From Methyloversatilis universalis EHg5 (GTDB lineage: Bacteria; Pseudomonadota; Gammaproteobacteria; Burkholderiales; Rhodocyclaceae), in assembly GCF_000378945.1 (NCBI RefSeq), contig NZ_KB900539.1, forward strand, positions 1,528,527 to 1,592,526: 64,000 nucleotides of DNA, given 5' to 3'. Of this stretch, positions 9,022 through 57,584 are shown in pieces. A model generated the notes under the pieces. It was not told where the DNA came from. It saw nothing but the letters and a program-made list of their open reading frames with translations, and made no database searches. Numbering within the stretch: the stretch's first letter is position 1; each line of letters starts with the position of its first letter. The position numbers were made by a program, and so were the translations under genes.

Positions 9022-9648
9022 CTATCCAGAAAGAATCTCGTCAGCATGGATGATGGCACGCGCGATTTCCTCGGTCGGGATGCGCTTGCTCATCGCCTGT
9101 TCGCGGATGATTCTGTAGGCCTCGGCGTCACTGACCCCACGGGTGCGCATCAGGATGGCCTTGGCGTCGTTGATCTGGTTCACGCTGAGCAGCTTCTGCT
9201 CCAGCCGCTGCACCCTCTTCTTGTAGCCGCGCATTTCCTGCGTCAGGCCGACGGTGAGCACCAGTGAGGCGAGCACGCCGGTCGAACGCAGCGGGGCGCT
9301 CAGCACACCGGTTGCGCCCATGCGCAGCATGACCTCGAAAATGGTCGGGTTTTCGTAGCCGACGACGGCGATCACCGCCGGCGGCTGTTCGAAGTTGCTG
9401 AAATTCAGCGGCGCGTGCATTTCGTTCGACTGGATCGCGTAATACACGACATCGACCTTGTCCGGCAGATCCTGCACCGGAGGCCAGAAGGTCTGCACCT
9501 GACAGCCGATGCGCTGTAGCTGCTGGATCAGCACCTCGCCGTCGGCATCACGCGGATGCAGCACGACGATGCGCAGATTGCGCAGCTGGGTCAGGAATTC
9601 AGGCGTGATGCGCTTGCTGCGTACGCCTGTGCGCGGCGGACTGCTCAC
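9022..9648 (-). CDS. ANTAR-domain transcription antiterminator (AmiR/NasT family)
   Basis: A 208-residue regulator with the AmiR layout. Residues 25-125 form a pseudo-receiver domain without an obvious phosphoryl-accepting aspartate pocket. Residues 138-156 look like a coiled-coil helix. Residues 158-201 form the RNA-binding ANTAR three-helix module, including the family's A-x3-L-M core (AKAILMRTRG). Such proteins bind tandem hairpins in nascent leader RNA and prevent termination. The GTG start (9646-9648) overlaps the stop of the AmiC-like gene by 4 bp, as in ami operons, suggesting a sensor-antiterminator complex. Likely targets are the two leaders at 10900-10977 and 16370-16452. Confidence 0.9.
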   Translation of the reverse strand: MSSPPRTGVRSKRITPEFLTQLRNLRIVVLHPRDADGEVLIQQLQRIGCQVQTFWPPVQDLPDKVDVVYYAIQSNEMHAPLNFSNFEQPPAVIAVVGYENPTIFEVMLRMGATGVLSAPLRSTGVLASLVLTVGLTQEMRGYKKRVQRLEQKLLSVNQINDAKAILMRTRGVSDAEAYRIIREQAMSKRIPTEEIARAIIHADEILSG

Positions 9649-10835
9649 GTTGATTCCTCTTCGTTCGCATTGACGCGCAGCCGCGTGCTCCAGTCGTCGA
9701 AGGAGTGGCTGACGAGATAGGGATCGGCCTCCACGCCGCCCGGTGTCTCGGCCAGTATCGTGAACTGGCCTTCGCTGTTTACCCGGCCGATGCGCGGATA
9801 GAGGCGGGCGTGGTGGTTGTGCGGCAGGATGCGGATGCGTCCCTGCGGTGCCTCGAACTCGCGTCCGAGAATGTGCGGCAGCAGGATGTCATGGTCATCG
9901 CTGCCCGCTTCGCGGAAGGCGTCGGCGAACACATGCACCTGGTAGTAGGACGACTCCCAGCTCATATTGGGCTGCACATCGTTGCCGAACAGCTTGCGGA
10001 ACAGCGCGACGCAGTCGCGGTTGCGCGGTGTGCCGATCGACTGGAAATAGGTGCCGCCGGTGTAGTGGCCCTCGGCCAGACGGATACCCATTTCGGATAC
10101 TTCCTCCTCGCTGGTGCACAGGCTGGCGATCGGCATCCTCTTCGGATCGAAACCGGCGTCCGCATAGGCCTGGTAGAGCATGCGGGTGGTCTTGCCGACC
10201 ATGGTCGAGAAGATGAAGTCCGGCTGCTTGGCCTTGATGTCCTTCATGATGGGCGTGAAGGCGCTTTCCTTCGCGTCGAGGTGCACATAGCGTTCGCCCA
10301 CCTTGGCTCCGCCCTGACGGTGGTGCACGAAGTCGCTCATGATGCGGTTCGACTCGTAGGGGAAGATGTAGTCGCTGCCGATCAGATACACCCGCGCGCC
10401 GAAACGGGTCGACATGTAGTCGGCGAGCAGGGCGCTGTTCTGGTTCGGCGCACCACCGGTGTAGATGATGTTGTTCGAGAACTCGAAGCCCTCGTACATG
10501 GTCGGGCAGAACAGCAGGCGGTTCCATCTTTCGACCACCGGCAGCACCGCCTTGCGCGTGCTCGACATGTAGCAGCCGAAGATGACATTGACCTTGTCGT
10601 CCTGGACCAGACGGGTCGCGAGCGAGCGGAAAAGCTGCGGATTCGACTGCGGATCGTAGTAGACCGGAACCAGCTCCCGGCCGTGGATGCCGCCGGCATC
10701 ATTGATCTCGCGGATCGCGAAAAGCGTGCCGGCCAGCATCGTATTTTCGATGCGCGATGTCACGCCCTCACGCGAGAACAGAACACCGACCTTGATGGGA
10801 TCGTTTGTGGACACGGGTTTGCGGCCGGGTGACAA
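9645..10835 (-). CDS. AmiC-like amide sensor (cytoplasmic binding-protein fold)
   Basis: A 396-residue periplasmic-binding-protein-like domain with no signal peptide, as in AmiC, which holds AmiR inactive until an amide binds. The core begins IKVGVLFSREG near residue 14. It is clearly related to the exported UrtA-like protein at 16540-17715: both carry GCY-x-S-x2-RKAVLPV and a YLIGSDYI segment. The longest reading starts with TTG at 10835; an in-frame GTG lies at 10814, and neither has a good ribosome site. The ligand is unknown; formamide, dimethylformamide or urea are reasonable guesses from the target genes. Confidence 0.88.
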   Translation of the reverse strand: MSPGRKPVSTNDPIKVGVLFSREGVTSRIENTMLAGTLFAIREINDAGGIHGRELVPVYYDPQSNPQLFRSLATRLVQDDKVNVIFGCYMSSTRKAVLPVVERWNRLLFCPTMYEGFEFSNNIIYTGGAPNQNSALLADYMSTRFGARVYLIGSDYIFPYESNRIMSDFVHHRQGGAKVGERYVHLDAKESAFTPIMKDIKAKQPDFIFSTMVGKTTRMLYQAYADAGFDPKRMPIASLCTSEEEVSEMGIRLAEGHYTGGTYFQSIGTPRNRDCVALFRKLFGNDVQPNMSWESSYYQVHVFADAFREAGSDDHDILLPHILGREFEAPQGRIRILPHNHHARLYPRIGRVNSEGQFTILAETPGGVEADPYLVSHSFDDWSTRLRVNANEEEST

Positions 10836-10860
10836 AAAACGTGATTGATACTAACAGAGC

Positions 10861-10889
10861 TTGACCGCGCGAAAGAGGCTCACTAAGAT
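10861..10889 (+). promoter_or_regulatory. Sigma-70 promoter of the dimethylformamidase operon
   Basis: TTGACC (10861-10866) and TAAGAT (10884-10889) are separated by exactly 17 bases, close to the housekeeping consensus. The expected start point near 10896 lies just upstream of the first leader hairpin at 10900. Confidence 0.75.
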
Positions 10890-10899
10890 TCACTCAACG

Positions 10900-10946
10900 C
10901 TTCGCCCCGCCAACACTGCCGGGCGCGAAGACGGGCAAAAAGGCCT
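10900..10946 (+). promoter_or_regulatory. ANTAR-type antitermination leader element (dmf copy)
   Basis: Two hairpins precede a terminator. P1 (10900-10930) pairs CTTCGC-CCCG with CGGG-C-GCGAAG (one bulged C) around CCAACACTGC, in which an inner C-G pair would leave the hexaloop AACACT. P2 (10933-10946) pairs GGGC with GCCT around the hexaloop AAAAAG, and its 3' strand is also the 5' arm of the terminator. P2 and terminator are therefore mutually exclusive, as expected for ANTAR targets. The copy at 16370-16415 keeps the loops while its stems covary. Confidence 0.65.
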
Positions 10947-10987
10947 GCACGGATCTCCGGATCCGGCAGGCCTTTTTGTTTTGGTTT
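10937..10987 (+). terminator. Leader terminator upstream of the dimethylformamidase genes
   Basis: AAAAAGGCCTGC, one bulged A, then CGGATC pairs with GATCCG-GCAGGCC and TTTTT across a TCCG tetraloop. A long T-rich tract follows to about 10987. It sits 104 bp upstream of the first structural gene, after the promoter, so it must be read through for expression. Confidence 0.85.
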
Positions 10988-11090
10988 TTCGCTTTCGAGT
11001 TTTCGCAGTTTTTCGAGATTTTTCGCATTGGCCAGTGCCGGCCGGTCGCGACAGGAGCTTCCAGATGTTCAACCCTTGAAGGAGAGTGCA

Positions 11091-11531
11091 GTGATTCCGA
11101 TACCCAGGAAAGGCACGCCGGAACGCGACCGGCTGATCCAGGAACACCTCGAGTGCGTGAAGTCGATGGCCGGCGTGGCCGGCTTTTCAGTGCTCAAGTG
11201 CGCGACGCCGGGCGACACCACCGAAATCAGCGGCGGTGTGCATGAAGACTATCTGCTGCGCCGCGTGCTGCTGCGCATGCGCGGCGCCTCGCCCAAAGGC
11301 AAGCTCATCGTCATCTGCACCAAGATCGACGCTGAATGGCGCATCGGGCGTCTGTCGGGCATCCGCGGCGTGCCGCCGGTATTCGTCGACGACACCGTCT
11401 ACACCAGCGAGCAGGACATCCAGCACGCCATCTTCCTGATGCGTCTCGACGAAATGGACGAGACCGATGGCATGCCTGAGCACTACCACGAAGGCTACAA
11501 GCGGCGCGACGACAACTGGCCGGTGACCTGA
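11091..11531 (+). CDS. dmfA1: N,N-dimethylformamidase small subunit
   Basis: A 146-residue protein placed directly before the large subunit gene; the known small subunit of this enzyme is about 130 residues. With the large subunit it hydrolyses dimethylformamide to dimethylamine and formate. The GTG at 11091 is chosen because AAGGAG ends 7 bases before it; a longer reading from 11028 has no such site. The protein is soluble and charged, with a C-terminal region rich in Asp, Glu and His. Expression should depend on read-through of the leader terminator at 10937-10987. Confidence 0.85.
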   Translation: MIPIPRKGTPERDRLIQEHLECVKSMAGVAGFSVLKCATPGDTTEISGGVHEDYLLRRVLLRMRGASPKGKLIVICTKIDAEWRIGRLSGIRGVPPVFVDDTVYTSEQDIQHAIFLMRLDEMDETDGMPEHYHEGYKRRDDNWPVT

Positions 11532-11638: not shown

Positions 11639-14035
11639 ATGTGTGCAATGCGACTGACCGGATACGCCGACAAGTTCAGCGTCCATCCCGGCGACAAGAT
11701 CAAGTTCTACGTCAATTGCGACGGACCGAAGCAGTACAGCGCGTCCATCGTGCAGATGATCAATGGCGACACCAACCCGCGCGGCCCTGGCTTCATCGAG
11801 AAGGCGGTGAAGGCCGACTGCGAGGGCGACTACGACGGCATCAAGCAGGTCGTCTACGGCGGCTCCTACGGTTTCGTGGCGGACGCGCCGCAGCTGAAGC
11901 CGGACAGCTTCACGCTGCAGTGCTGGATCTGGCCGACCACGCCCAAGACCGACAAGCGCTACTGGAAGCACGGCGCCCAGGGCCTGGTGACCAAGTGGTC
12001 CGGCGGCAAGGGCTATGGCCTGTTCATCAATACCGACGGCTGTGTCGAGCTGCGCATCAACGGTGAAACCTACTCGACCGGCGCGCCGCTGCGTGACCAC
12101 GCCTGGCACTTCATCGCGGCGAGCTTCGACGCGAAGACCGGAGAGGTGGTGCTGTATCACGAGCCGCAGGTGGTCTATGCACTCGACCCCGAAATTCCGC
12201 CGGTCAAGGCGAGCTTCAAGGGCAAGGTCGAACACACCGACCTGCCGCTGGTGATCGCAGGCTACGTTGATCATGTCGAGCCGGGGCCGCTGGGCCTGTC
12301 CTCGCTGCCGCAGGGCGTCATCGTCGGCGGCCAGTACAACGGCAAGATCGACAGCCCGCGCCTGTGCAGCCGTGCGCTGTCGCGCTTCGAGATCGAAATG
12401 ATGAAGGGCGGCGCGCAGCCGGGCCTGACCGAGCGCCGCAACGCCGGCCCGACCGGCGTGCTGTCGGAAGCCATCGTCGCCGCCTGGGACTTTTCCGACG
12501 GCATCGACACGCTGGTGGCGAAGGATGCCGGCCCCTACCGCTTCGACGCCACGCTTGTTAACTGCCCGACGCGCGCGCTGACCGGCTACAACTGGGCCGG
12601 CCAGACCTTCGACTGGAAGGTGGCGCCGAAGGAATACGGCGCCATCCACTTCCACGACGACGACCTCGACAACGCGCGCTGGGAAGTGAGCTTCGAGTGG
12701 ACCGTGCCGGCGGACATCAAGAGCCGCTTCTACGCCGCCAAGCTCACCACGCCGGAAGGTGACGAGGACTACATCCCGTTCTGGATCGTGCCGAAGATCG
12801 GTAAGGAACAGTCGAAGATCGCCGTGATGGTGCCCACCATCAGCTACATGGCCTACGCGAACGAGCACGTTGCGTGCAATGCGGGTGGCGCCGAACTGTT
12901 CGTCTATCGCGTGCCCATCATGCAGCAGCAGAACATGTTCCTCGCCGAACACCGCGAGTACGGCGGCTCGATCTACGACACCCACACCGACGGCAGCGGC
13001 ATCTGCCTGTCGTCCCGACTGCGGCCCATCCTGAGCATCCGGCCGAAGTACGACCACTTCCTGGCGCAGGCGCCGTGGCAGTACCCGGCCGACCTGCACC
13101 TGATCTGCTGGCTGGAACAGATGGGCTACGAGTACGACGTGTTCACTGACGAGGACGTGACCTATGACGGTCTGGCCCGGCTGGAGAACTACAACGTCAT
13201 CATCACCGGTTCGCACCCCGAGCACAACTCGGGCACCCAGCTCGACGCGCTGCACAACTACACGCAGCGCGGCGGCCGCCTGATGTATATGGGCGCCGAC
13301 GCCTGGTACTGGGTGCATTCCTTCCATCCGGCCTACGACGGTCTGGGCCGCGGCATCGTCACCGAAATGCGCCGCTGCGAATCCGGCATCCGCACCTGGC
13401 GCGCCGATCCGGGCGAGTACTACCACCAGGGCACCGGCGAACTGGGCGGGATGTGGCGCTACCGTGGCCGCTACCTGCACTCGGTGGCCGGCACCGGCAT
13501 GTCGTCCGAAGGTTTCGACATTTCGTCCTACTACTCGCGTACGCCGGAAAGTCTGGATCCGCGCGTCAGTTGGGCCTTCGACGGCATCGGCTACGAAGAG
13601 AACCTCGGCAACTTCGGTCTGGTCGGCGGCGGTGCGGCCGGTCTGGAGCTGGACATCGTCGACACCATGCTGGGTTCGCCGCCGCACATCCTCACCGTCG
13701 CCACCTCGGCCGGTCGTCACACCGAGGCCTACCTGCTGGTGATGGAGGATTTCGGCTTCAACCAGCAAGGTCTGGACGGCACCGTGCATCCGCGCGTGCG
13801 CGCCGACATCACCTTCCACGAAACGCCCAACGGCGGCGGCTGCTTTGCCTTCAGCTCCATTGCCTACTGCGGTTCGCTGCCGTGGAACAACTGCGACAAC
13901 AACATTTCGCGTCTGACCAGGAACGTGCTTGACCGCTTCATGCAGGACGGCCCGCTGCCGGCCGCGCCGAAGGAAGCGATCAAACACCGCGGTCGCGCGG
14001 ATTACGAGTCGCCGGCGCTGGCGTCGAAGAGCTGA
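11639..14035 (+). CDS. dmfA2: N,N-dimethylformamidase large (catalytic) subunit
   Basis: A 798-residue protein; the family is about 760. A concanavalin-like (LamG-type) beta-sandwich occupies roughly residues 80-250, followed by the catalytic domain. The enzyme family uses a mononuclear iron held by two tyrosines and a glutamate. By spacing and motif these should be Tyr406 (in MAYANEH), Tyr446 (in SIYDTHTDG) and Glu528 (in SHPEHN), which keep nearly the same spacing as the ligands I recall from the Paracoccus enzyme. GGAG lies 9 bases before the ATG. Start at 11639 is supported; an in-frame ATG at 11648 is possible. Confidence 0.92.
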   Translation: MCAMRLTGYADKFSVHPGDKIKFYVNCDGPKQYSASIVQMINGDTNPRGPGFIEKAVKADCEGDYDGIKQVVYGGSYGFVADAPQLKPDSFTLQCWIWPTTPKTDKRYWKHGAQGLVTKWSGGKGYGLFINTDGCVELRINGETYSTGAPLRDHAWHFIAASFDAKTGEVVLYHEPQVVYALDPEIPPVKASFKGKVEHTDLPLVIAGYVDHVEPGPLGLSSLPQGVIVGGQYNGKIDSPRLCSRALSRFEIEMMKGGAQPGLTERRNAGPTGVLSEAIVAAWDFSDGIDTLVAKDAGPYRFDATLVNCPTRALTGYNWAGQTFDWKVAPKEYGAIHFHDDDLDNARWEVSFEWTVPADIKSRFYAAKLTTPEGDEDYIPFWIVPKIGKEQSKIAVMVPTISYMAYANEHVACNAGGAELFVYRVPIMQQQNMFLAEHREYGGSIYDTHTDGSGICLSSRLRPILSIRPKYDHFLAQAPWQYPADLHLICWLEQMGYEYDVFTDEDVTYDGLARLENYNVIITGSHPEHNSGTQLDALHNYTQRGGRLMYMGADAWYWVHSFHPAYDGLGRGIVTEMRRCESGIRTWRADPGEYYHQGTGELGGMWRYRGRYLHSVAGTGMSSEGFDISSYYSRTPESLDPRVSWAFDGIGYEENLGNFGLVGGGAAGLELDIVDTMLGSPPHILTVATSAGRHTEAYLLVMEDFGFNQQGLDGTVHPRVRADITFHETPNGGGCFAFSSIAYCGSLPWNNCDNNISRLTRNVLDRFMQDGPLPAAPKEAIKHRGRADYESPALASKS

Positions 14036-14110: not shown

Positions 14111-15094
14111 ATGGAATGCATGACCGAACATCCGGTTCACCTGCACCGCCGACCGGGCAGGGCGGGCGAGGCATTCGACGTCGCCGCCTTCCGCGGGCTG
14201 GATTTCGCCCGCGCCGAGGACGACGCGATCTGGACGCGCGAATGGGTGTGCGTGGGCAGCCCGCTCGACATTCCGGCCGCCGGCGACCTGCTGCCTTTCA
14301 CCGTCGGCGATCACGCCATCCACGTTCAGCGCCTGCCGGATGGCGGATTCGCTGGCCGCTTCAACAAGGCGCAGCACGGCGGCTGCCGCGTGGTGCCGCT
14401 GCAGTGCCAGCAGGGCGCGAAGACGCCGTGTTCCTTCACCTCCTGCGGCCACAGTCTCGACCGCCCGGCCATCGCTGCCGGCGAGCTGGGCGAGGGTACG
14501 CCGCAGATGTACCAGTATCTCGGCCTGCGACCGGAGCGCCTGCTGCCGGTGCGCGCCGCGACCTGGGGGCCGCTGCTGTTCGTGAGCCTCGATCCGCACG
14601 GGACCTCGTTCGAGCCGATCGCCCGCGCGCTGACGGCGGCACTGCCGGCCTGGCGCGGCGAGCCCGCGGACCGCCACCGCATCCGCTGGATGGACTGCGA
14701 CGCCAACTGGAAGCTGGTCGCCCAGCACCTGCTGGCGGCGTCGACCACGCTCTCATCCGGTGAGGTCGCGTTGTGCCGTGCCGATGCCGAAGGACGGGCG
14801 GCGCTGCTGTTCCCCAATCTCGTGCTGCTGTCGTCACCGCTTGGCACCTGTGCCGTCGTGCTGCAGCCGGTGTCGCTCACCCGCACGCTGTGCCGGGTCG
14901 CGCAGTTCGGGCCAGACGACAGCCCGCTCGCTTGGGAGATGTTGCTGCACACCCGGCTTGCCGCCGCCGCGCAGGCGCAGGCGGCGATCGAAGGCGGCGG
15001 CATAGGCGGACGCGGCTGTGAGCCGGCCGGCCAGCTGGATGCCGGCGGACGATGGATCGAAACGCAGGTGATGGCGCGCATCGCTGCGCGCTGA
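14111..15094 (+). CDS. Rieske-oxygenase-like protein lacking metal ligands
   Basis: A 327-residue protein that follows the alpha subunit of Rieske non-haem oxygenases along its whole length. It has the WTREWVCVGSP and IPAAGD segments, then a Rieske-like region and an NWK helix. The cluster ligands are broken: in the first motif His89 remains but the cysteine position is Ala87; in the second His114 remains but the cysteine position is Ser111. In the catalytic domain the two iron histidines expected after NWK (199-201) appear as Thr212 and Gly217. It is therefore probably not an oxygenase; a structural or chaperone role for dimethylformamidase is conceivable. GAGGA lies 8 bases before the ATG at 14111. 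Confidence 0.75.
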   Translation: MECMTEHPVHLHRRPGRAGEAFDVAAFRGLDFARAEDDAIWTREWVCVGSPLDIPAAGDLLPFTVGDHAIHVQRLPDGGFAGRFNKAQHGGCRVVPLQCQQGAKTPCSFTSCGHSLDRPAIAAGELGEGTPQMYQYLGLRPERLLPVRAATWGPLLFVSLDPHGTSFEPIARALTAALPAWRGEPADRHRIRWMDCDANWKLVAQHLLAASTTLSSGEVALCRADAEGRAALLFPNLVLLSSPLGTCAVVLQPVSLTRTLCRVAQFGPDDSPLAWEMLLHTRLAAAAQAQAAIEGGGIGGRGCEPAGQLDAGGRWIETQVMARIAAR

Positions 15095-15120
15095 TCGGGC
15101 AAACCAGGAGATCTGTATAT

Positions 15121-15810
15121 ATGGACGCACTGATGGAAACGGCGCTGTCACTCGAAGACGCGGTGGCCGCCTACCGCGATGGCGATCTGCCGACTGCGGC
15201 GAGATTGTTCGAGGCGCTGGCCGAAGAAGGCGAAGCGGAGGCGCAGGCCTGGACCGGCGCGCTGTACGCGAATGGTGAAGGCGTGCCGGCTGATCTGGCG
15301 CAGGCTTTCCGCTGGTATCTGCGCGCCGCAGAGGGCGGCCACGTGCCGGCGCAGACCAATGTCGGCGCCATGCTCATGATGGGCAACGGCACGCCGACTG
15401 ATCCCGAGCGCGGCCTGCACTGGCTGCGCACCGCGGCCGAAGCAGGCGACGCGATGGCGCAGAGCAATCTGGCCACGCTGTACTTCAAGGGCCAGGGCAC
15501 GACGCAGGACGAAGCGCAGGCGGCGCACTGGTACCGGCAGGCGGCCGGGCAGGGGCACTTTCCCTCTCAGGCGCGGCTGGGTTTCATGTACGCCAACGGG
15601 CTGGGCGTGGACAAGGACAGGGCGCAGGCCTTCGCCTGGCTGTCGCTGGCCGCGCAGCACGGCGTGGGCAGCGCGCTCAATGCGCTTGAGGGCATGATCG
15701 GCCAGATGTCGGCCGAAGAGAAACAGAAGGGGGCTGCGCTGTTCGACCAGTGGCGCAGCCGCACCGCAGCGGTGTCGTCGCCGGCACGGCTGATTCCGGT
15801 TCCGGGGTGA
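15121..15810 (+). CDS. Sel1-repeat protein
   Basis: A 229-residue protein with about four Sel1-like (TPR-related) repeats of 36 residues, starting near residues 38, 74, 110 and 146 (for example AQAFRWYLRAAEGG). Such alpha-solenoids mediate protein-protein contacts. AGGAG lies 10 bases before the ATG at 15121. No signal peptide is visible, so it is probably cytoplasmic. It lies 26 bp after the Rieske-like gene in the dimethylformamidase operon and may help assemble or hold that complex. Confidence 0.85.
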   Translation: MDALMETALSLEDAVAAYRDGDLPTAARLFEALAEEGEAEAQAWTGALYANGEGVPADLAQAFRWYLRAAEGGHVPAQTNVGAMLMMGNGTPTDPERGLHWLRTAAEAGDAMAQSNLATLYFKGQGTTQDEAQAAHWYRQAAGQGHFPSQARLGFMYANGLGVDKDRAQAFAWLSLAAQHGVGSALNALEGMIGQMSAEEKQKGAALFDQWRSRTAAVSSPARLIPVPG

Positions 15811-16330: not shown

Positions 16331-16359
16331 TTGACGCACCGCAGCAGCCTTCCTATCAT
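16331..16359 (+). promoter_or_regulatory. Sigma-70 promoter of the urea/amide-binding protein gene
   Basis: TTGACG (16331-16336) and TATCAT (16354-16359) are 17 bases apart. The predicted start near 16366 is immediately before the leader hairpin at 16370, matching the dimethylformamidase leader. The 16121-16330 stretch upstream shows no gene or other signal to me. Confidence 0.75.
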
Positions 16360-16369
16360 CGATTCAACT

Positions 16370-16415
16370 TTCCGCGTCGCCAGCATTGCCGGCGCGGAAC
16401 AAGGCAAAAGGGCCT
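16370..16415 (+). promoter_or_regulatory. ANTAR-type antitermination leader element (second copy)
   Basis: P1 (16370-16399) is a 10-bp stem, TTCCGCGTCG with CGGCGCGGAA, around CCAGCATTGC; an inner C-G pair leaves the hexaloop AGCATT. P2 (16402-16415) pairs AGGC with GCCT around AAAAGG, again using the terminator's 5' arm. Compared with the copy at 10900-10946, the P1 loop differs only by purine or pyrimidine exchanges while the stems change on both sides. This is good evidence for RNA structure. Confidence 0.65.
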
Positions 16416-16452
16416 GCCCTGGATCTCCGGATCCGGGCAGGCCCTTTTTTTT
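16406..16452 (+). terminator. Leader terminator upstream of the binding-protein gene
   Basis: AAAAGGGCCTGCCC, one bulged T, then GGATC pairs with GATCC-GGGCAGGCCC across a TCCG tetraloop, followed by eight Ts. It is 88 bp upstream of the start codon and shares its GGATC-TCCG-GATCC core with the dmf leader terminator. Confidence 0.88.
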
Positions 16453-16539: not shown

Positions 16540-17715
16540 ATGAAGAATCAATCCAGGCGCGACATCGTCAAGGGGCTGGCCCTCGCGGCAGTCGCCGGTC
16601 CGTGGATGGTGCGCAACGCCATGGCCGAAGACACGGTCAAGGTGGGCATCCTGCATTCGCTGACCGGCACCATCGCGCTGGCCGAAGCGTCGGTGGTCGA
16701 CGCGGAAAAGCTGGCCATCGACGAAATCAATGCGGCCGGCGGCGTGCTCGGCAAGAAGATCGTGCCGGTGGTCGAGGACGGCGCCAGCGACTGGCCGACC
16801 TTCGCCGAAAAGGCGCGCAAGCTGCTGGACCGCGACAAGGTCGCGGCGGTGTTCGGCTGCTACACCTCGGCGTCGCGCAAGGCGGTGCTGCCGGTGTTCG
16901 AACAGCAGAAGGGTCTGCTGTACTACCCGACCTACTACGAAGGCCAGGAACAGTCGCCCAACATCCTGTACACCGCGCACGAAGCGACCCAGCAGTGCAT
17001 CCAGGCCTGCAACTGGCTGCTGGCCAACCGCGGCAAGAGCGTCTATCTGATCGGCTCGGACTACATCTGGCCGCGGGTCACCAACAAGATCGCGCGCCCG
17101 ACCATCGTGAAGGGTGGCGGCAAGGTGCTGGGCGAGGAATACCTGCCGCTGGGCAGCACCAATTTCGGCTCCACCATCAACAAGATCAAGGCGACCAAGC
17201 CGGACATCATCCTGAGCACCGTGGTCGGTGGCTCCAATGTGGCCTTCTACAAGCAGCTGAAGGCGGCCGGCGTGAACTTCAGCAAGACCACGGTGATGGC
17301 GCTCGCGGTGTCGGAAGAGGAAGTGTCCGGCATTGGCAAGGAGAACGTGCAGGACGTGCTCACCTGCATGAGCTATCTGCAGAGCCTCGATAACCCGGCC
17401 AACAAGAAATTCGTCGCCGCCTTCAAGGCCAAGTACGGCGACAAGCGCGTCACCGGCGACACGCTCGCCAGCGCCTACACAGCGGTCTATCTGTGGAAGC
17501 AGGCGGTCGAGAAGGCCAAGAGCTTCGACGTCGACAAGGTGGTGGCGGCCTCGGCCAACCTCGAGTTCGAAGGACCGGAAGGCAAGGTGAAGTTCCACGC
17601 CACCAATCACCATCTGTGGAAGCAGGCGCGCATCGGTTCCTTCATGGCGGACGGTCAGGTCAAGCTGATCTACGAATCGCCGCTGATCGAACCGAATCCG
17701 TATCCGACGCTGTAA
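16540..17715 (+). CDS. UrtA/FmdD-like urea or short-amide ABC binding protein
   Basis: A 391-residue type I periplasmic binding protein. The N-terminus has a twin-arginine type signal (SRRDIVKG followed by a hydrophobic stretch, cleavage near AMA at residue 29), so it is probably exported folded. The mature domain starts VKVGILHSLTG and matches urea (UrtA) and formamide (FmdD) binding proteins. No urtBCDE-type permease or ATPase genes follow; urease genes come next, 98 bp later. It is a paralogue of the cytoplasmic sensor at 9645-10835. Expression should depend on antitermination at 16406-16452. Confidence 0.88.
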   Translation: MKNQSRRDIVKGLALAAVAGPWMVRNAMAEDTVKVGILHSLTGTIALAEASVVDAEKLAIDEINAAGGVLGKKIVPVVEDGASDWPTFAEKARKLLDRDKVAAVFGCYTSASRKAVLPVFEQQKGLLYYPTYYEGQEQSPNILYTAHEATQQCIQACNWLLANRGKSVYLIGSDYIWPRVTNKIARPTIVKGGGKVLGEEYLPLGSTNFGSTINKIKATKPDIILSTVVGGSNVAFYKQLKAAGVNFSKTTVMALAVSEEEVSGIGKENVQDVLTCMSYLQSLDNPANKKFVAAFKAKYGDKRVTGDTLASAYTAVYLWKQAVEKAKSFDVDKVVAASANLEFEGPEGKVKFHATNHHLWKQARIGSFMADGQVKLIYESPLIEPNPYPTL

Positions 17716-17720
17716 GCGCA

Positions 17721-17746
17721 TGCGGTCCCGCGACAGCGGGACCGCA
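17721..17746. other. Strong hairpin between the binding-protein gene and ureE
   Basis: TGCGGTCCCGC pairs perfectly with GCGGGACCGCA around GACA. There is no T-run, so it may act as an mRNA 3'-end stabiliser or partial terminator that lowers urease expression relative to the binding protein. Confidence 0.5.
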
Positions 17747-17813
17747 GCGGCACGGCCGGCGCCGCGACCGTCGCAGCGCCGGGCTCCTGTACCGAAAGAT
17801 TCGAGATCGAACC

Positions 17814-18311
17814 ATGCTCAGACTGACTGAAATCGTCGGCCACGCGTCCGACCCCGAACTGGCCGAGCGCCTGCACCAGATGGCACACGACGGCGTGGTG
17901 GAGCGCATCCACCTGTCGCGCACCGACCTTCAGCGACGCCGTCAGCGCGTGCTGACCGACCGCGGCAACGAGGTGGCTTTGATGCTGGACCGCGCATCGG
18001 CGCTCGACAACGGCTCGGTGCTGCTGCTCGAACCGGCCCGCGCGGTCGTCGTGGTGCTCGACGAGCCCGAATGGCTGGTGCTGCGCGCACCGCACGCCGC
18101 CGGCGCGCTGGAGCTGGGTTACTTCGCCGGCAACATGCACTGGAAGGTGCGCTTCGAGGGCAGCTGCCTGTGGGTGCCGCTCGAAGGTCCGCGCGAAGGC
18201 TATGTGAAACGCCTCGCGCATCTGATCGCCCGTGGCGATGCCGAAATCATCGACGCCCCGGCCGTACCGGCGGGCGGGGTGCGCTATCTGGCGGTTCCGC
18301 ATGCGCACTGA
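17814..18311 (+). CDS. ureE: Urease accessory protein UreE (nickel carrier)
   Basis: A 165-residue UreE, the nickel metallochaperone that passes Ni to UreG for insertion into urease. The N-terminal peptide-binding domain spans about 1-75. The C-terminal metal-binding domain contains the GNMHWK segment, whose histidine fits the conserved nickel ligand. The tail ends His-Ala-His rather than in a long poly-His run. The ATG at 17814 is the family-like start (MLRLTEIVG). It is the first urease gene, 1 bp before ureF. Confidence 0.9.
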   Translation: MLRLTEIVGHASDPELAERLHQMAHDGVVERIHLSRTDLQRRRQRVLTDRGNEVALMLDRASALDNGSVLLLEPARAVVVVLDEPEWLVLRAPHAAGALELGYFAGNMHWKVRFEGSCLWVPLEGPREGYVKRLAHLIARGDAEIIDAPAVPAGGVRYLAVPHAH

Positions 18312-18312
18312 C

Positions 18313-19047
18313 ATGAATCACGCCGATCCCGCCCTCGGCCTGCCGGCCGACGACGGCGGTGCGCTGGACATGCTCACCATGCTGCAGTTCGCCGACAGCT
18401 TCTTCCCCAGCGGCGCCACCTCGTTCTCCTGGGGGCTGGAATCGCTCCGGCACGACGCCCGGGTGAGCAATGCGGAACAGGTGTTCGAGGTGCTGTGCGC
18501 CCATATCGAACAGCGCTGGGCCGGCTTCGACCGGCCGCTGATGCACGCGGCCCGTGAAGCCTGGGTGCAGCGCGGCGCCGCCGCGCTCAGTGATGCGATC
18601 GAACTGGATCGCCTGTGCGAAGCGATGAACCTGACGCGCAGCTGGCGTGACGCCAGCCGCCGGCTCGGCTTCACCCAGCTCCGGGTGCATGCCGATCTGG
18701 GGCAGGGCATCGCCCAGGTCTATCTGGACCAGGTGCGTGCGTCGTGTCTGCCCGGCCATCTGCCGGTGGTGCAGGGCCTGGTGTGGGGAGCGTACGGACT
18801 GTCGGCCTCCGGCTGCGATGCGATGGCGTCCAGCGGCCTGTGCACCACGGTGGTCGGTGCGGCCCTGCGACTGGGGCTGATCGGTCATACCGAAGGCCAG
18901 CGACTGCTCACCCGTACGCGTCCGCTGATCGCCCGCGTCATGGCGGCGCCGCCATGCCCGGTCGACGCGCTGTGGAGCGGCGCACCGGTGCTCGACCTCG
19001 CCGCCATGCGCCACGAGCCGCGCAGCGCCCGGCTGTTCGCCAACTGA
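18313..19047 (+). CDS. ureF: Urease accessory protein UreF
   Basis: A 244-residue all-helical UreF, which with UreD and UreG forms the activation complex on apo-urease. The QFADSFFPSGATSFSWGLE region (residues 27-45) is the family signature. The start may be the ATG at 18313, 1 bp after ureE, or the ATG at 18301, which overlaps ureE; neither has a strong ribosome site. Translational coupling to ureE is likely. Confidence 0.9.
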   Translation: MNHADPALGLPADDGGALDMLTMLQFADSFFPSGATSFSWGLESLRHDARVSNAEQVFEVLCAHIEQRWAGFDRPLMHAAREAWVQRGAAALSDAIELDRLCEAMNLTRSWRDASRRLGFTQLRVHADLGQGIAQVYLDQVRASCLPGHLPVVQGLVWGAYGLSASGCDAMASSGLCTTVVGAALRLGLIGHTEGQRLLTRTRPLIARVMAAPPCPVDALWSGAPVLDLAAMRHEPRSARLFAN

Positions 19048-19062
19048 CTGGAGTACGCACAC

Positions 19063-19767
19063 ATGCTGCTCACACCGACCGAACTCGAAAGACTGACGAT
19101 ATTTAATGCCGCCGAACTGGCGCGCCGCCGCCGTGCGCGCGGCCTGAAGCTGAACTGCCCGGAGGCGATCGCGATCATCGTCGACGACATCCTCGAAGGT
19201 GCCCGCGACGGCCGCACCGTGGCCGAACTGATCGGCTACGGCTCGCAGATCCTCACCAGCGACGACGTGCTGCCCGGCGTTGCGGCGCTGATGCCGATGA
19301 TCCAGGTCGAGGCGAGCTTTCCCGACGGCACCAAGCTGGTGACCGTGCATGACCCGATACGACCCGGGCCCGACGCCGCGAACGCGCCGGTGCCGGACCG
19401 CATACCGGGCGAAATCATTCCGGCCGAGGGCCGCATCGAACTGAGCCCCGGGCGCCGACGCGCCACGCTGCGGGCGCTCAACACCGGCGACCGGCCGATA
19501 CAGGTGGGCAGCCACTTCCACTTCTTCGAGGTGAACCGCGCGCTCGAATTCGACCGCGCGCTGGCCTGGGGCATGCACCTGGACATTGCCGCCGGCACCG
19601 CGGTGCGCTTCGAACCGGGCGAGGACAAGGAAGTGACGCTGGTCGCCTTCGGCGGCAGCGGCGAGGTGTTCGGCCTGAACCGGCTGGCCGAAGGATCGAC
19701 CGCCGACGGCGCCGGCCTGCCCGACGCATTGACCCGCGCGCGCGCCGCCGGATTCCGCGGCGCCTGA
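19063..19767 (+). CDS. ureAB: Urease gamma-beta fusion subunit
   Basis: One 234-residue chain carries both small urease subunits. Residues 1-100 are the gamma subunit ([11 protein letters not shown] start, [10 protein letters not shown] segment). A short linker about 101-113 leads to the beta subunit at 114-234 (PGEIIPAEG start, [11 protein letters not shown]). Most bacteria encode these as separate ureA and ureB; a fused form is known from Helicobacter. With UreC it hydrolyses urea to ammonia and carbamate. GGAG lies 11 bases before the ATG. Confidence 0.94.
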
Positions 19768-19789
19768 CCGACAGATCACGGAGAACCAC

Positions 19790-21502
19790 ATGACATCGCT
19801 CTCCCGCCGCGACTACGCGGCGATGTACGGACCCACGAAGGGCGACATGGTGCGCCTGGGCGACACCTCGCTGCTGGCCGAGATCGAGCACGACTACACC
19901 ACGCCGGGTGATGAGTGCCTGCATGGCGGCGGCAAGACGCTGCGCGACGGCCTCGGCATGATGGGCGGGCTCACTTCGGAACAGGGCGCGCTCGACATGC
20001 TGATCAGCAACGTCGTGGTGATCGACGCGGTGGCTGGCATCGTGAAAGGCGACATCGGCATCAAGGACGGACGCATCGTCGCCATCGGCAAGGCCGGCAA
20101 CCCGCACGTGATGGATGGCGTGCATCCGCAACTGCTGGTGGGCAACGCCACCACGGTGCGCGACGGCGAAGGGCTGATCGCCACCGCCGGCGGGCTGGAC
20201 GTGCATGTGCACTTCGATTCCGCACAGCTGGTCGAGCACGCGCTCGCCTCCGGCATCACCACGATGTTCGGCGGTTCGCTCGGCCCGATCACGGTGGGCA
20301 TTGACTGCGGCGGCGCATGGAACGTCGGCCGCATGCTGCAGGCCTCCGAACAGTGGCCGATGAATTTCGGCTTTCTCGGCCGCGGCAACTCGTCGCGCCC
20401 GGAATCGCTGGTCGAACAGATGAAGGCCGGCTGCATCGGCCTGAAGATCCACGAGGACTGGGGCGCCACGCCGGCCACCATAGACACCTGCCTGTCGGTC
20501 GCCGACGAGATGGACTTCCAGGTTCAGCTGCACACCGACACGCTGAACGAATCCGGCTTTCTCGAAGACACGCTGGCCGCGACGAAGGGTCGCACCATCC
20601 ACATGTATCACACCGAAGGTGCGGGCGGCGGCCACGCGCCGGACGTGATCTGCGTGGCCGGGCTGCAGCACTGCCTGCCGTCGTCGACCAATCCGACGAA
20701 TCCCTACACGGTGAATACCTTCGACGAGCACCTGGACATGATCATGGTGTGTCACCACCTGAATCCTGCCGTGCCCGAGGACGTGGCCTTCGCCGAGAGC
20801 CGCATCCGCGCGCAGACCATCGCCGCCGAAGACGTGCTGCACGACATGGGCGCGATCTCGATGCTGGGCTCGGACAGCCAGGGGATGGGGCGCATCAACG
20901 AAGTGATCTGCCGCACCTGGCAGCTGGCCAGCAAGATGAAGGACCAGTTCGGCCGCCTGCCGGAAGAAACCACGCGCAGCGCCGACAACGAACGCATCCT
21001 GCGCTACATCGCCAAGTACACGATCAATGCCGCGCGATCGTTCGGCGTCGATCACCACGTCGGTTCGCTGGAGCCGGGCAAGCTCGCCGACATCGTGCTG
21101 TGGCGCCCGGCCTTCTTCGGCATCAAGCCGGAAATCGTGGTGAAGGGCGGCTTCATCGCCTACGGCGCGATGGGCGATTCGGCGGCGTCGCTGATGACCT
21201 GCGAGCCGCTCATCATGCGGCCGCAGTGGGGCGCCTTCGGTCGCGCGCCGCAGGGTCTGTCGGCCAATTTCGTCTGCGCCGCCTCGCTGGACAGCGACCT
21301 CAACGGCCGGCTCGACATCCGCAAGGCGCTGCTGCCGTGCAAGGGCACACGCACGCTGCAGAAGGCCGACATGGTGCGCAACGCCGCCTGCCCGAACATC
21401 ACGGTCAATCCGCAGACCTTCGAGGTGAGCGTCGACGGCCGCGTCATCAGCTGCCCGCCGGTCGACCGCGTGCCGCTCAACCGTCTTTACATGATGAGGT
21501 GA
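19790..21502 (+). CDS. ureC: Urease alpha (catalytic) subunit
   Basis: A 570-residue urease alpha subunit with all nickel-site residues present: His139 and His141 (DVHVHF), carbamylated Lys219 (GLKIHEDWG), His248, His274 and Asp362 (GSDSQGMGR). The mobile flap Cys321-His322 is also present. Length matches the family. It follows the fused gamma-beta gene by 22 bp and should be active once loaded with nickel by UreDEFG. Confidence 0.97.
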
Positions 21503-21506
21503 TGCC

Positions 21507-22154
21507 ATGTCCGCCCAGCTCTCTCCTTCTTCAAAGACCCGGCCGCGCGGTGCAGCGCGGGTCGGCATCGGCGGCCCGGTCGGCTCCGGCAAGACCGCGC
21601 TGCTGGAACAGCTCATTCCGCGCTTCATCGCGCGCGGCACCGATATCGCCGTAATCACCAACGATCTGGTCACCGCCGAAGACGCCGAGCGCGTGCGCCG
21701 CAGCGGCCTGATCGCGCCAGAGCGCGTGCTGGCGGTGGAAACCGGCGCCTGCCCGCACACCGCGATCCGCGAAGATCCGACGCTCAACCTCGCCGCAGCC
21801 GACGAACTGGACCGCGCCTACCCCGGCCTGGAGCTCATCCTGATCGAGAGCGGCGGCGATAACCTCGCGTCGTCTTTCTCGCTCGATCTGGTCGACTACT
21901 GGTTGTTCGTGATTGACGTCGCCGGCGGCGATGACATTCCGCGCAAGCGTGGGCTGGGCGTGCTGCAGAGCGATCTGCTGGTGATCAACAAGGTGGATCT
22001 GGCACCGCACGTGAACGTGAATCTGGACCGCATGGTGCGCGAGGCGCATGAGGTGCGCGCCGGGCGCACGACCCTGCTCACCAACTGTGCCCGTGGCGAT
22101 GGCGTCGATGCCGTGGTCGAGCGCATCGCGCAGGAGGTGCTGTTTGATCGCTGA
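21507..22154 (+). CDS. ureG: Urease accessory GTPase UreG
   Basis: A 215-residue SIMIBI-class GTPase that drives nickel insertion. The P-loop GGPVGSGKT is near residues 22-30, the metal-binding Cys-Pro-His motif ([12 protein letters not shown]) near 77-88, and the NKVD guanine-specificity motif near 151. It begins 4 bp after ureC. Its end overlaps the start of ureD. Confidence 0.95.
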
Positions 22155-23019
22155 ACCGGCACTGGCTGACGCGGCACACCGGGCGGCGCCCGACATGGGC
22201 GGGCGACCCTGCGTCGATCTCGCGTTCGCGCGCGACGCCGCCGGGCGCACCTATCTGGGCCGTCAGTACGTCGGCTACCCGGTGCATGTCGGGCGGGCGT
22301 TACATGTCGATGGTTCGGCGCCCGATCTGTGCGTGGTGTACCTGCAGTCGGTGTCCGGCGGCCTGTTCGAGCACGAGCGGCTGGCCGGCCGGATCGAGGT
22401 GGGGCAGGGCGCGCGCGCCCATGTCGCAACGCCGGCCTCCACCATCGTGCATGCGATGCAGGGCGGGTCCGCGGTGCAGCGCATGCGGCTCGTGGCGCAG
22501 CCGGGCGCGCTGCTGGAATACATGCCGGCGCCGCTCATCCTGTTTCCCGGCAGTCATATGGTGAGCGATACCGAGGTGACGCTGGCCGAAGGCGCGCTGG
22601 TGGTGGTGGCGGACAGCTTCCTGCCGCACGACCCGAAGGGCGGGCAGGGCTGTTTCGCGCGCATCGAATCGGCGATGACCATCCGCGATGCGCAGGGGCA
22701 ATTGCTCGCACGTGAGTGCATGCGCATCGACGGCGCTGGCTGGCTGGCCGGCGGTGCCGGCGCGAACGCCGGTCTGCGCATGCACGGTTCGCTGTGGCTG
22801 CTGGGCAGCCCGGCAGAGGGCGAACTGCTGCAGACGCTGCGCGCGCTGCCGGTACCCGCCGGCGAACTGGCGGGCGCCAGCCTGCTGCCGAATGGCGCCG
22901 GCATCGTGTTCCGCGCACTCGCCGGCGATGCGGTCGGGCTGGACAGACTCATGCACGCCGCCTGGAGCGCGGCGCGTACCCATCACACCGGCCATGCGCC
23001 GGCGCTGCGACGACGCTGA
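22144..23019 (+). CDS. ureD: Urease accessory protein UreD
   Basis: A 291-residue UreD (UreH) scaffold protein that binds apo-urease with UreF and UreG. The family's [11 protein letters not shown] and LPHDPKGG segments are present. I chose the TTG at 22144 because AGGAGG ends 6 bases before it and it overlaps ureG by 11 bp; the next in-frame ATG (22195) would lose part of the N-terminus. UreD usually opens urease operons, so its place at the end is unusual. Confidence 0.88.
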
Positions 23020-57259: not shown

Positions 57260-57335
57260 GCGGGAATAGCTCAGTTGGTAGAGCGCAACCTTGCCAAGGT
57301 TGAGGTCGCGAGTTCGAGCCTCGTTTCCCGCTCCA
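57260..57335 (+). tRNA. tRNA-Gly (anticodon GCC)
   Basis: A complete 76-base cloverleaf with encoded CCA. The acceptor stem GCGGGAA/TTCCCGC is perfect and the anticodon loop is TTGCCAA. Confidence 0.97.
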
Positions 57336-57343
57336 AGATACAG

Positions 57344-57371
57344 AAATGGGGAAGCCTAGCTTCCCCATTTT
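57344..57371 (+). terminator. Hairpin after the first tRNA-Gly
   Basis: AAATGGGGAAGC pairs with GCTTCCCCATTT around CTA, followed by a T. It may end or process the tRNA transcript. Confidence 0.6.
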
Positions 57372-57402
57372 GCTTCACAGCCGGTTCGCCGGCTGCGCCT
57401 CA

Positions 57403-57476
57403 GGCGAGGTGGCAGAGTGGTTATGCAGCGGCCTGCAAAGCCGTGGACGCCGGTTCGATTCCGACCCTCGCCTCCA
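57403..57476 (+). tRNA. tRNA-Cys (anticodon GCA)
   Basis: A 74-base tRNA with encoded CCA. The acceptor stem is GGCGAGG/CCTCGCC and the anticodon loop is CTGCAAA. Confidence 0.96.
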
Positions 57477-57508
57477 GGACAATTTGATCGGTACTCACGT
57501 GCCGATAC

Positions 57509-57584
57509 GCGGGAATAGCTCAGTTGGTAGAGCGCAACCTTGCCAAGGTTGAGGTCGCGAGTTCGAGCCTCGTTTCCCGCTCCA
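57509..57584 (+). tRNA. tRNA-Gly (anticodon GCC), second identical copy
   Basis: All 76 bases equal the copy at 57260-57335, so this is a recent duplication or is kept identical by gene conversion. Confidence 0.97.

Follow-up and report, generated by a model that had tools for sequence, protein, structure and literature searches.

The leader of the dimethylformamidase (DMFase) operon of Methyloversatilis universalis EHg5 is, judging by its sequence, very probably an antitermination switch of the AmiC/AmiR type that couples DMFase to a urea operon. We studied it within a window of 64,000 nucleotides of that genome, the window being the whole stretch of DNA that was analysed (Table 1). An earlier note on this DNA had proposed an antitermination leader in front of the operon, read by an ANTAR-type regulator encoded nearby. 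That proposal gains support from covarying base pairs in the first hairpin, from a twin leader, from the joint presence or absence of leader, AmiR and DMFase in 13 genomes, and from other AmiR loci whose leaders are laid out in the same way.

Architecture of the leader

The leader combines a promoter, two small hairpins (P1 and P2) and an intrinsic terminator, as the earlier note had described. The promoter, called near-consensus there, is present at the place given in Table 1. Its pattern, TTGACC-17-TAAGAT, is by itself at chance level (3 promoter-like sites in 20 kb against 2.7 expected from shuffles). Among Methyloversatilis leaders TTGAC and TA..AT are kept and the spacer diverges; the pattern matched 11 of 14 upstream sequences, which include two pairs identical in that stretch, and in the unmatched ones (L008, L009 and L011) TTGACG and TAGTAT stand one base further apart, as read by eye. 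The stretch around GATACTAACAGAGC (10847-10860), directly 5' of the -35 box, is near-identical among dmf leaders and differs in urt leaders; it may hold a back-to-back amiC promoter.

Transcription usually starts about 7 nt past the -10 box, and from this spacing P1 begins 2-4 nt past the predicted RNA start, in agreement with the roughly 4 nt noted earlier. Its hexaloop AACACU (10912-10917) is closed by a C-G pair with a C.C mismatch beneath, and P2 carries the hexaloop AAAAAG (10937-10942); both have A at positions 1 and 4 (A1, A4). Positions 10934-10947 are common to P2 and the terminator, whose 5' arm includes the loop and 3' arm of P2, so that the two hairpins are mutually exclusive, as had been claimed. 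The strong terminator of the earlier note is also upheld; it spans 10934-10980 ahead of its T tract, with perfect outer arms of 13 nt and a fold of 10893-11000 at -57.2 kcal/mol (z -6.5; none of 200 shuffles as low). Its distance to the first gene needs correction, as the T tract and the GTG codon that opens dmfA1 (11091) are 108 nt apart rather than 104. Stepwise folding of the growing RNA, an analysis of the kind suggested in that note, shows P2 present from 10946 to 10966, after which, from 10970, the terminator displaces it. When P2 is forced, the best fold (-33.9 kcal/mol) is much weaker than the terminator fold (-54.9 kcal/mol), and something must therefore hold P2 for read-through to occur. 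Rfam at gathering thresholds recognised only three tRNAs in the window and left the leader unmatched; at relaxed thresholds only sub-threshold matches fell over the leader. Three consecutive tRNA genes lie at 57260-57581.

Table 1. Leaders, regulators and target genes in the 64-kb window (positions within the window)
Feature	Position	Strand	Basis or remark
AmiR-like antiterminator	9022..9648	-	PF21332 AmiR_N + PF03861 ANTAR; Asp at the EutV Glu160 position
AmiC-like amide sensor	9645..10835	-	PF13433; P. aeruginosa AmiC 1pea is the best solved relative, E 6e-83
Promoter of the DMFase operon, TTGACC-17-TAAGAT	10861..10889	+	sigma-70-like; sequence and hexamer conservation
Hairpin P1	10898..10933 (10900-10930 without the two outer pairs)	+	folding, covariation
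Hairpin P2 (putative antiterminator)	10932..10947	+	folding
Intrinsic terminator and T tract	10934..10982	+	5' arm includes P2 loop and 3' arm
dmfA1, DMFase small subunit, 146 aa, GTG start	11091..11531	+	position; without Pfam match
dmfA2, DMFase large subunit	11639..14035	+	PF20254 DMFA2_C
Second-leader promoter, TTGACG-17-TATCAT	16331..16359	+	sequence
Second-leader P1, hexaloop AGCAUU at 16382-16387	16370..16399	+	alignment, scan
Second-leader P2, hexaloop AAAAGG	16402..16415	+	alignment
Second-leader terminator	16406..16450	+	alignment, stepwise folding
urtA-like urea/short-chain-amide binding protein	16540..17715	+	TIGR03407, 520 bits, above cut-off
Urease genes (ureE, ureF, ureAB, ureC, ureG-like, ureD)	17493..23019	+	ORF starts as listed, provisional
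ureF	18232-19047	+	urease gene set
ureAB	19063-19767	+	urease gene set
ureC	19790-21502	+	urease gene set
ureG-like	21507-22154	+	urease gene set
ureD	22048-23019	+	urease gene set

Regulators and target genes

The earlier note had placed the ANTAR regulator immediately next door to the leader and divergent from the operon. It is indeed neighbouring and divergent, but the directly adjacent gene encodes an AmiC-like sensor, missed in the first reading, which sits between AmiR and the leader. The amiC and amiR reading frames overlap by 4 bases, and both AmiR domains exceed their cut-offs (PF21332 with 120.9 bits, PF03861 with 51.1 bits). On the other side of the leader, dmfA2 is 98% identical to the DMFase large subunit of a Methyloversatilis discipulorum MAG, and dmfA1 owes its name to its conserved place directly upstream of the large subunit. 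A Sel1-repeat protein (15052-15810) is encoded between the DMFase and urea operons.

A second copy of the leader, also mentioned in the earlier note, is present at 16331-16450 and precedes the urtA-like and urease genes. Urea transporters figure among the ANTAR targets in a passage of PMC3369931, which makes the twin leader one of a known kind.

The link of AmiC to dimethylformamide (DMF) is suggested by gene position. In the four Methyloversatilis AmiC proteins that were aligned, Cys, Phe and Cys occupy the columns of Tyr104, Tyr152 and Thr233 of P. aeruginosa AmiC, residues that we take to line the amide pocket. This combination is absent from all other aligned rows, as are Cys104 and Cys233 each on their own. 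It is possible that the exchange fits a ligand other than acetamide, for example DMF, though it proves nothing of the sort; residues 104, 152 and 233 are not named in PMC8895129.

Conservation within Methyloversatilis

In an alignment of 13 distinct Methyloversatilis leaders (6 dmf, 7 urt), P1 pairing stands at 95.8% with both sides changed in 6 of 11 pairs, and none of 500 shuffles reaches the covariation score; the consensus structure was drawn from the same sequences that entered these tests. Sliding the partner by one column reduces the paired cells of P1 and P2 together from 97% to at most 49%. Two measures for P1 and P2 are less extreme: 22 of 500 shuffles equal or exceed the number of doubly changed pairs, and 21 of 500 the number of pair types. 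Two pairs are broken in some leaders and never compensated. P2 shows no compensatory change among the 13 leaders, 3 of its 4 pairs being invariant. Both sides have changed in 2 of the 18 terminator pairs, and the pair-type count of P1 plus terminator is at chance (274 of 500 shuffles). The ten apical columns of P1, CCARCAYUGC, vary little beyond one purine and one pyrimidine, and the stem changes.

This pattern bears on the proposal that a conventional regulator uses the inverted repeats as its DNA operators, the terminator merely stopping stray transcription. A palindrome does lie just 3' of the promoter, and the DMFase regulator described in a passage of PMC4543880, DmfR of Paracoccus, is an activator of the LuxR family. 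However, stem letters that vary with pairing kept around a constant unpaired loop are the reverse of what an operator needs, and the adjoining regulator carries an ANTAR domain; we regard operators as improbable. A crude, over-strict scan for a LuxR motif was positive at none of 14 AmiR-bearing DMFase loci and at 2 of 66 others.

Still less probable is ribosome-dependent attenuation, in which a leader peptide would sense an amino acid and control the terminator: sub-threshold Rfam matches to Thr_leader (22.2 bits) and Phe_leader (20.1 bits) do fall over the leader, but they are far under the curated cut-off of 55 each, P1 at the predicted RNA start leaves no room for a ribosome site and a leader ORF, and the conserved part is an apical loop.

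The covariance search with both copies that the earlier note had suggested was carried out with a model (R1) built on Methyloversatilis leaders, 150 candidates being scored per genome, with weak extra copies possibly missed. Of the 13 Methyloversatilis genomes, 11 gave two strong matches each (99-109 bits), and G007 and G009 gave none; weaker matches (up to 31 bits) lay on the opposite strand at the same sites. AmiR is found in the same 11 genomes, and orthologous DMFase likewise; G007 and G009 lack both, the DMFase of G007 being only a 38% identical paralogue. A riboswitch that needs no protein and has an amide or urea as its direct ligand would suit a structured leader with a terminator ahead of substrate-related genes, yet we give it hardly any credence, as two small hairpins with six-base loops form no larger conserved core and, in the genus, leaders occur in 11 of 11 genomes with AmiR and in 0 of 2 without.

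A urtA paralogue, 59-60% identical, is kept in G007 and G009 and occurs also in G000, G002 and G005. DMFase-like proteins 38-41% identical to that of the window are encoded at L015-L019 in G007, G011, G012, G028 and G060; the frame in G028 is interrupted by one stop, and one such protein in G060 is encoded about 10 kb from an amidase-linked AmiR.

Leaders at AmiR loci in other genomes

Of 399 genomes sampled from the order, 24 have an AmiR_N match at E <= 1e-12. AmiR lies within the fetched flank (up to 5 kb) at 14 of 80 named DMFase loci, namely 6 Methyloversatilis-like ones, 6 of Burkholderiaceae, L087 and L088. Five Burkholderiaceae DMFase loci were scanned (L026, L027, L028, L096, L097), and each has the AmiC-AmiR pair together with two leaders, which stand ahead of dmfA1 and of urtA; the gene order is a different one. 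A further 12 loci of the order have AmiC-AmiR divergent from urtA and a leader in the DNA that separates them. A leader precedes a CN_hydrolase gene in a family of the order, f25, which we take for Methylophilaceae, and at L151 (L151, L174 and L265 were tested); according to NCBIfam the gene after the leader is an aliphatic amidase at L151 and L174, the two loci so tested.

R1 is weak on distant leaders (best 27 bits), and purpose-written scans were therefore used. A scan for leader motifs free as to loop letters found 55 at AmiR loci (1.79 Mb) and 5 in the control (1.49 Mb); 34 of the 55 have A1 in both loops, against none of the 5. A scan for P1, P2 and terminator that required A at position 1 and left position 4 free gave 49 raw hits in 2.08 Mb of AmiR loci, including duplicates and a few doubtful ones, and 0 in the 1.49 Mb of control. 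The control consists of 63 DMFase loci, nearly all of them without AmiR nearby (the range L031-L086 and L089-L095 held none with an AmiR hit), in which the scan with A1 loops covered both strands; on both strands of the 64-kb window it found only the two leaders.

Three loci of another order of the class (L275, L276, L278) have P1 loops AAUUGC, AGCUUC and AACUGC, that is U4, with G4 kept in P2; this is another departure from the published motif. Also in another order of the class, L181:8710-12957 and L271:7936-12189 each combine an all-A4 leader, a CN_hydrolase gene and, two ORFs on, a VWA-domain gene, an order reminiscent of the plasmid amiE operon in a passage of PMC13209695, which includes NorQ- and NorD-like genes. 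At L267 (~12773), L268 (~789) and L269 (~12900) the 5' arm of a terminator holds GGAC-AAAGGC-GUCC, with a G4-type loop, and the AmiR leader is of the A4 type; these terminators could belong to a second ANTAR system there.

Loop position 4

According to passages of PMC3369931, PMC7496416 and PMC8934654, both hexaloops of ANTAR targets begin with A (A1) and have G as their fourth letter (G4). The same sources report that G4 matters in vivo and for binding by EutV and is preferred in NasR SELEX, and that in the EutV-RNA crystal G4 stacks on Tyr164, the G4 of P2 being held by Arg142, Lys149 and Glu160. The dmf and urt loops of the window (AACACU/AAAAAG and AGCAUU/AAAAGG) depart from this rule, a point that the first reading had missed. 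A1 and A4 are present in both loops of all 22 strong leaders of the 11 genomes; 21 were read by a pattern that allowed only A or G at position 1 of P1 and left position 4 free, and the remaining one, the dmf leader of G005 (same site as L013), was read from the alignment. Thus A1, two hairpins with six-base loops and the overlap with the terminator agree with the described motif, and G4 is absent from both loops, so that an ANTAR protein of the described specificity should not bind. These leaders seem best filed as a variant of the ANTAR target motif, one with presumably ami-like working and AmiC/AmiR proteins that lacks a defining feature.

The genome of the window also encodes an ANTAR protein with Arg142, Lys149, Glu160 and Tyr164, followed by a leader (G000:C1 ~1253159-1253250; L001:2000-2092) with loops AACGAC/AAGGGU, whose 43-nt spacing holds a third hairpin. 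A nitrate-type ABC transporter comes next, its permease and ATPase above the NCBIfam nitrate cut-offs. Neither loop of this leader departs from A1 and G4 in any of the 13 Methyloversatilis genomes. One cell thus has two ANTAR systems that differ consistently at loop position 4. A third ANTAR protein, L002 (G000:C1:518267-518422), is of the response-regulator type with Arg160, Val149 and Phe164 and adjoins a kinase-like ORF, as judged by eye. It could be the reader of the dmf leader RNA, which counts against reading by AmiR.

Residue 160 of AmiR

Aligned to EutV, AmiR of the window has V142, N143, D147, K149, D160, Y164, R168 and M172; the RNA contacts of EutV are kept at K149, Y164, R168 and M172 and changed at V142, N143, D147 and D160. 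An AmiR-like ORF was obtained from 77 of the 78 loci examined (the exception, L175, has an internal stop). L177, L179 and L295-L297 were dropped before the tree, leaving 72, and 19 of these had no findable leader and were uncounted, including 4 without Glu160 (L163, L165, L166, L270). For the remaining 53 we took the loop letters from the scan output by hand; at L266-L269 and L298 the register AACAGC (-9.4 kcal/mol) was used rather than the scan's first, AGCGCC (-3.7 kcal/mol), which has G4.

G4 occurs in at least one loop with all 31 Glu160 AmiRs and with 6 of the 22 AmiRs without Glu160. Conversely, in all 16 cases with both loops devoid of G4 the AmiR lacks Glu160; residue 160 is Asp in the 4 rows from Methyloversatilis, Ala or Ile in the 9 from f25, and Arg or His in the 3 from another order of the class. 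The 6 non-Glu160 AmiRs with G4, which have it in P1 only, are the DMFase-linked ones of Burkholderiaceae. Two stricter rules were rejected: G4 in P1 is missing with 6 of 31 Glu160 proteins and present with 6 of 22 others, and G4 in P2 is missing with 4 of 31 and present with 0 of 22.

Because Methyloversatilis and f25 share one branch, G4 was lost from both loops on two separate occasions, and Burkholderiaceae represent a third loss of Glu160. The tree has 3 changes at residue 160 and 2 of the loops, and the independent pairs (2 concordant, 1 tied) give a sign-test p of 0.5, uncorrected for the several positions that were examined for a residue-loop link. With only three Glu160 losses beneath it, the association of Glu160 with G4 is suggestive and not significant.

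What A4 means is a separate question from antitermination itself. One answer, to which we give close to an even chance, is that A4 is neutral, AmiR using its ordinary contacts and tolerating either purine. Lys149, Tyr164, Arg168 and Met172 of EutV are kept in AmiR of the window, 10 of the 31 leaders of Glu160 AmiRs lack G4 in one loop (some have U), and a passage of PMC8164766 has actinobacterial ANTAR RNAs conserving A1 and G4 only at >50%. Against neutrality, A4 never varies in either loop of the 22 leaders, and the nitrate-transporter leader has G4 in both of its loops in 13 of 13 genomes. That the Methyloversatilis AmiR has instead an altered recognition of loop letter 4 is a tentative reading of these sequences, which we hold with rather less than even confidence. 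We offer in the same guarded spirit, as a conjecture somewhat short of an even bet, a broader account. Position 4 would be a specificity letter of ANTAR RNAs; the Methyloversatilis AmiR would have lost Glu as its leaders took A4, insulating an amide, urea and DMF regulon from the G4 nitrate system; a separate shift would have occurred in another order; and DMFase would have been recruited twice by different regulator lineages.

In the AmiR and AmiC trees the Methyloversatilis pair groups with those of L166 and f25, and the Burkholderiaceae pair with urtA-linked ones. A single clade of DMFase-linked regulators is rejected (p-AU 0.002 for AmiR, 0.0001 for AmiC; 34 chosen rows, the group having been named after an earlier tree was seen). 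For DMFase a single clade is not rejected (p-AU 0.081; 54 chosen rows, without L087 and L088). AmiC/AmiR control of DMFase was gained either twice or once with a later swap of regulator.

Proposed mechanism

With antitermination as the preferred reading, one may propose the following course of events. Without ligand, AmiC would keep AmiR inactive, and the nascent RNA would fold P1 and then the terminator, so that transcription stops near 10982. Binding of an amide by AmiC (DMF, formamide and urea are candidates) would free AmiR, which would bind the hexaloops of P1 and P2 as they emerge and hold P2. The terminator would then be blocked and dmfA1A2 transcribed, and likewise urtA-ure from the twin leader. 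AmiR in the Methyloversatilis lineage may read A, not G, at loop position 4, and such a reading would keep it apart from the G4 ANTAR system in front of the nitrate-transporter genes.

Going by the open-licence literature, this would be the first proposal of RNA-level control over the breakdown of a major industrial solvent, and DMF use would be tied to urea use. It also makes directly testable how a cell with several ANTAR proteins keeps each of them off the RNAs of the others: the lineages described here supply natural protein-RNA pairs in which one loop letter and a few residues differ. Leaders with A4 would probably escape any search model that demands A1 and G4.

Relation to known systems

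The earlier note knew of no described RNA-level control of DMF degradation, and the open-licence literature is consistent with this: the described regulator, DmfR of Paracoccus aminophilus pAMI2, also regulates dmfA1A2 with DMF, but according to a passage of PMC4543880 it is a LuxR-family transcriptional activator and does not act through RNA. The fmdCABDEF genes of Methylophilus methylotrophus likewise belong to a methylotroph, concern formamide, short-chain amides and urea, and are induced by formamide and urea; they differ in encoding a formamidase rather than a DMFase, and an RNA mechanism is absent from the passage concerned of PMC10781810.

Closer to the leaders described here are the urtA leaders of other Burkholderiales (12 loci), with the same protein pair divergent from urtA and the same RNA layout. 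They differ in P1 loops such as AAAGGC and AAGGAC (G4) and in an AmiR with Glu160, and the DMFase of the window has no match in the stretches concerned. The EutV leaders of Enterococcus faecalis likewise have two short hairpins with six-base loops, A1, and the second hairpin inside the terminator; here, unlike there, position 4 is A, AmiR has Val142, Asn143, Asp147 and Asp160, and an AmiC-like sensor takes the place of the kinase.

The amiE leader of P. aeruginosa with AmiC/AmiR likewise joins a sensor and an ANTAR protein to P1, P2, an overlapping terminator and amide-related genes, and the leaders at L151 and L174 precede an aliphatic amidase gene as in that described system. In Methyloversatilis, by contrast, DMFase and a urea operon are the targets, the regulators are divergent and there are two leaders; both loops have A1/A4, whereas a passage of PMC3369931 reports A1/G4 for both loops of amiE. 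The type of switch is known, and its use on DMFase genes and the altered letter that it seems to recognise appear to be new.
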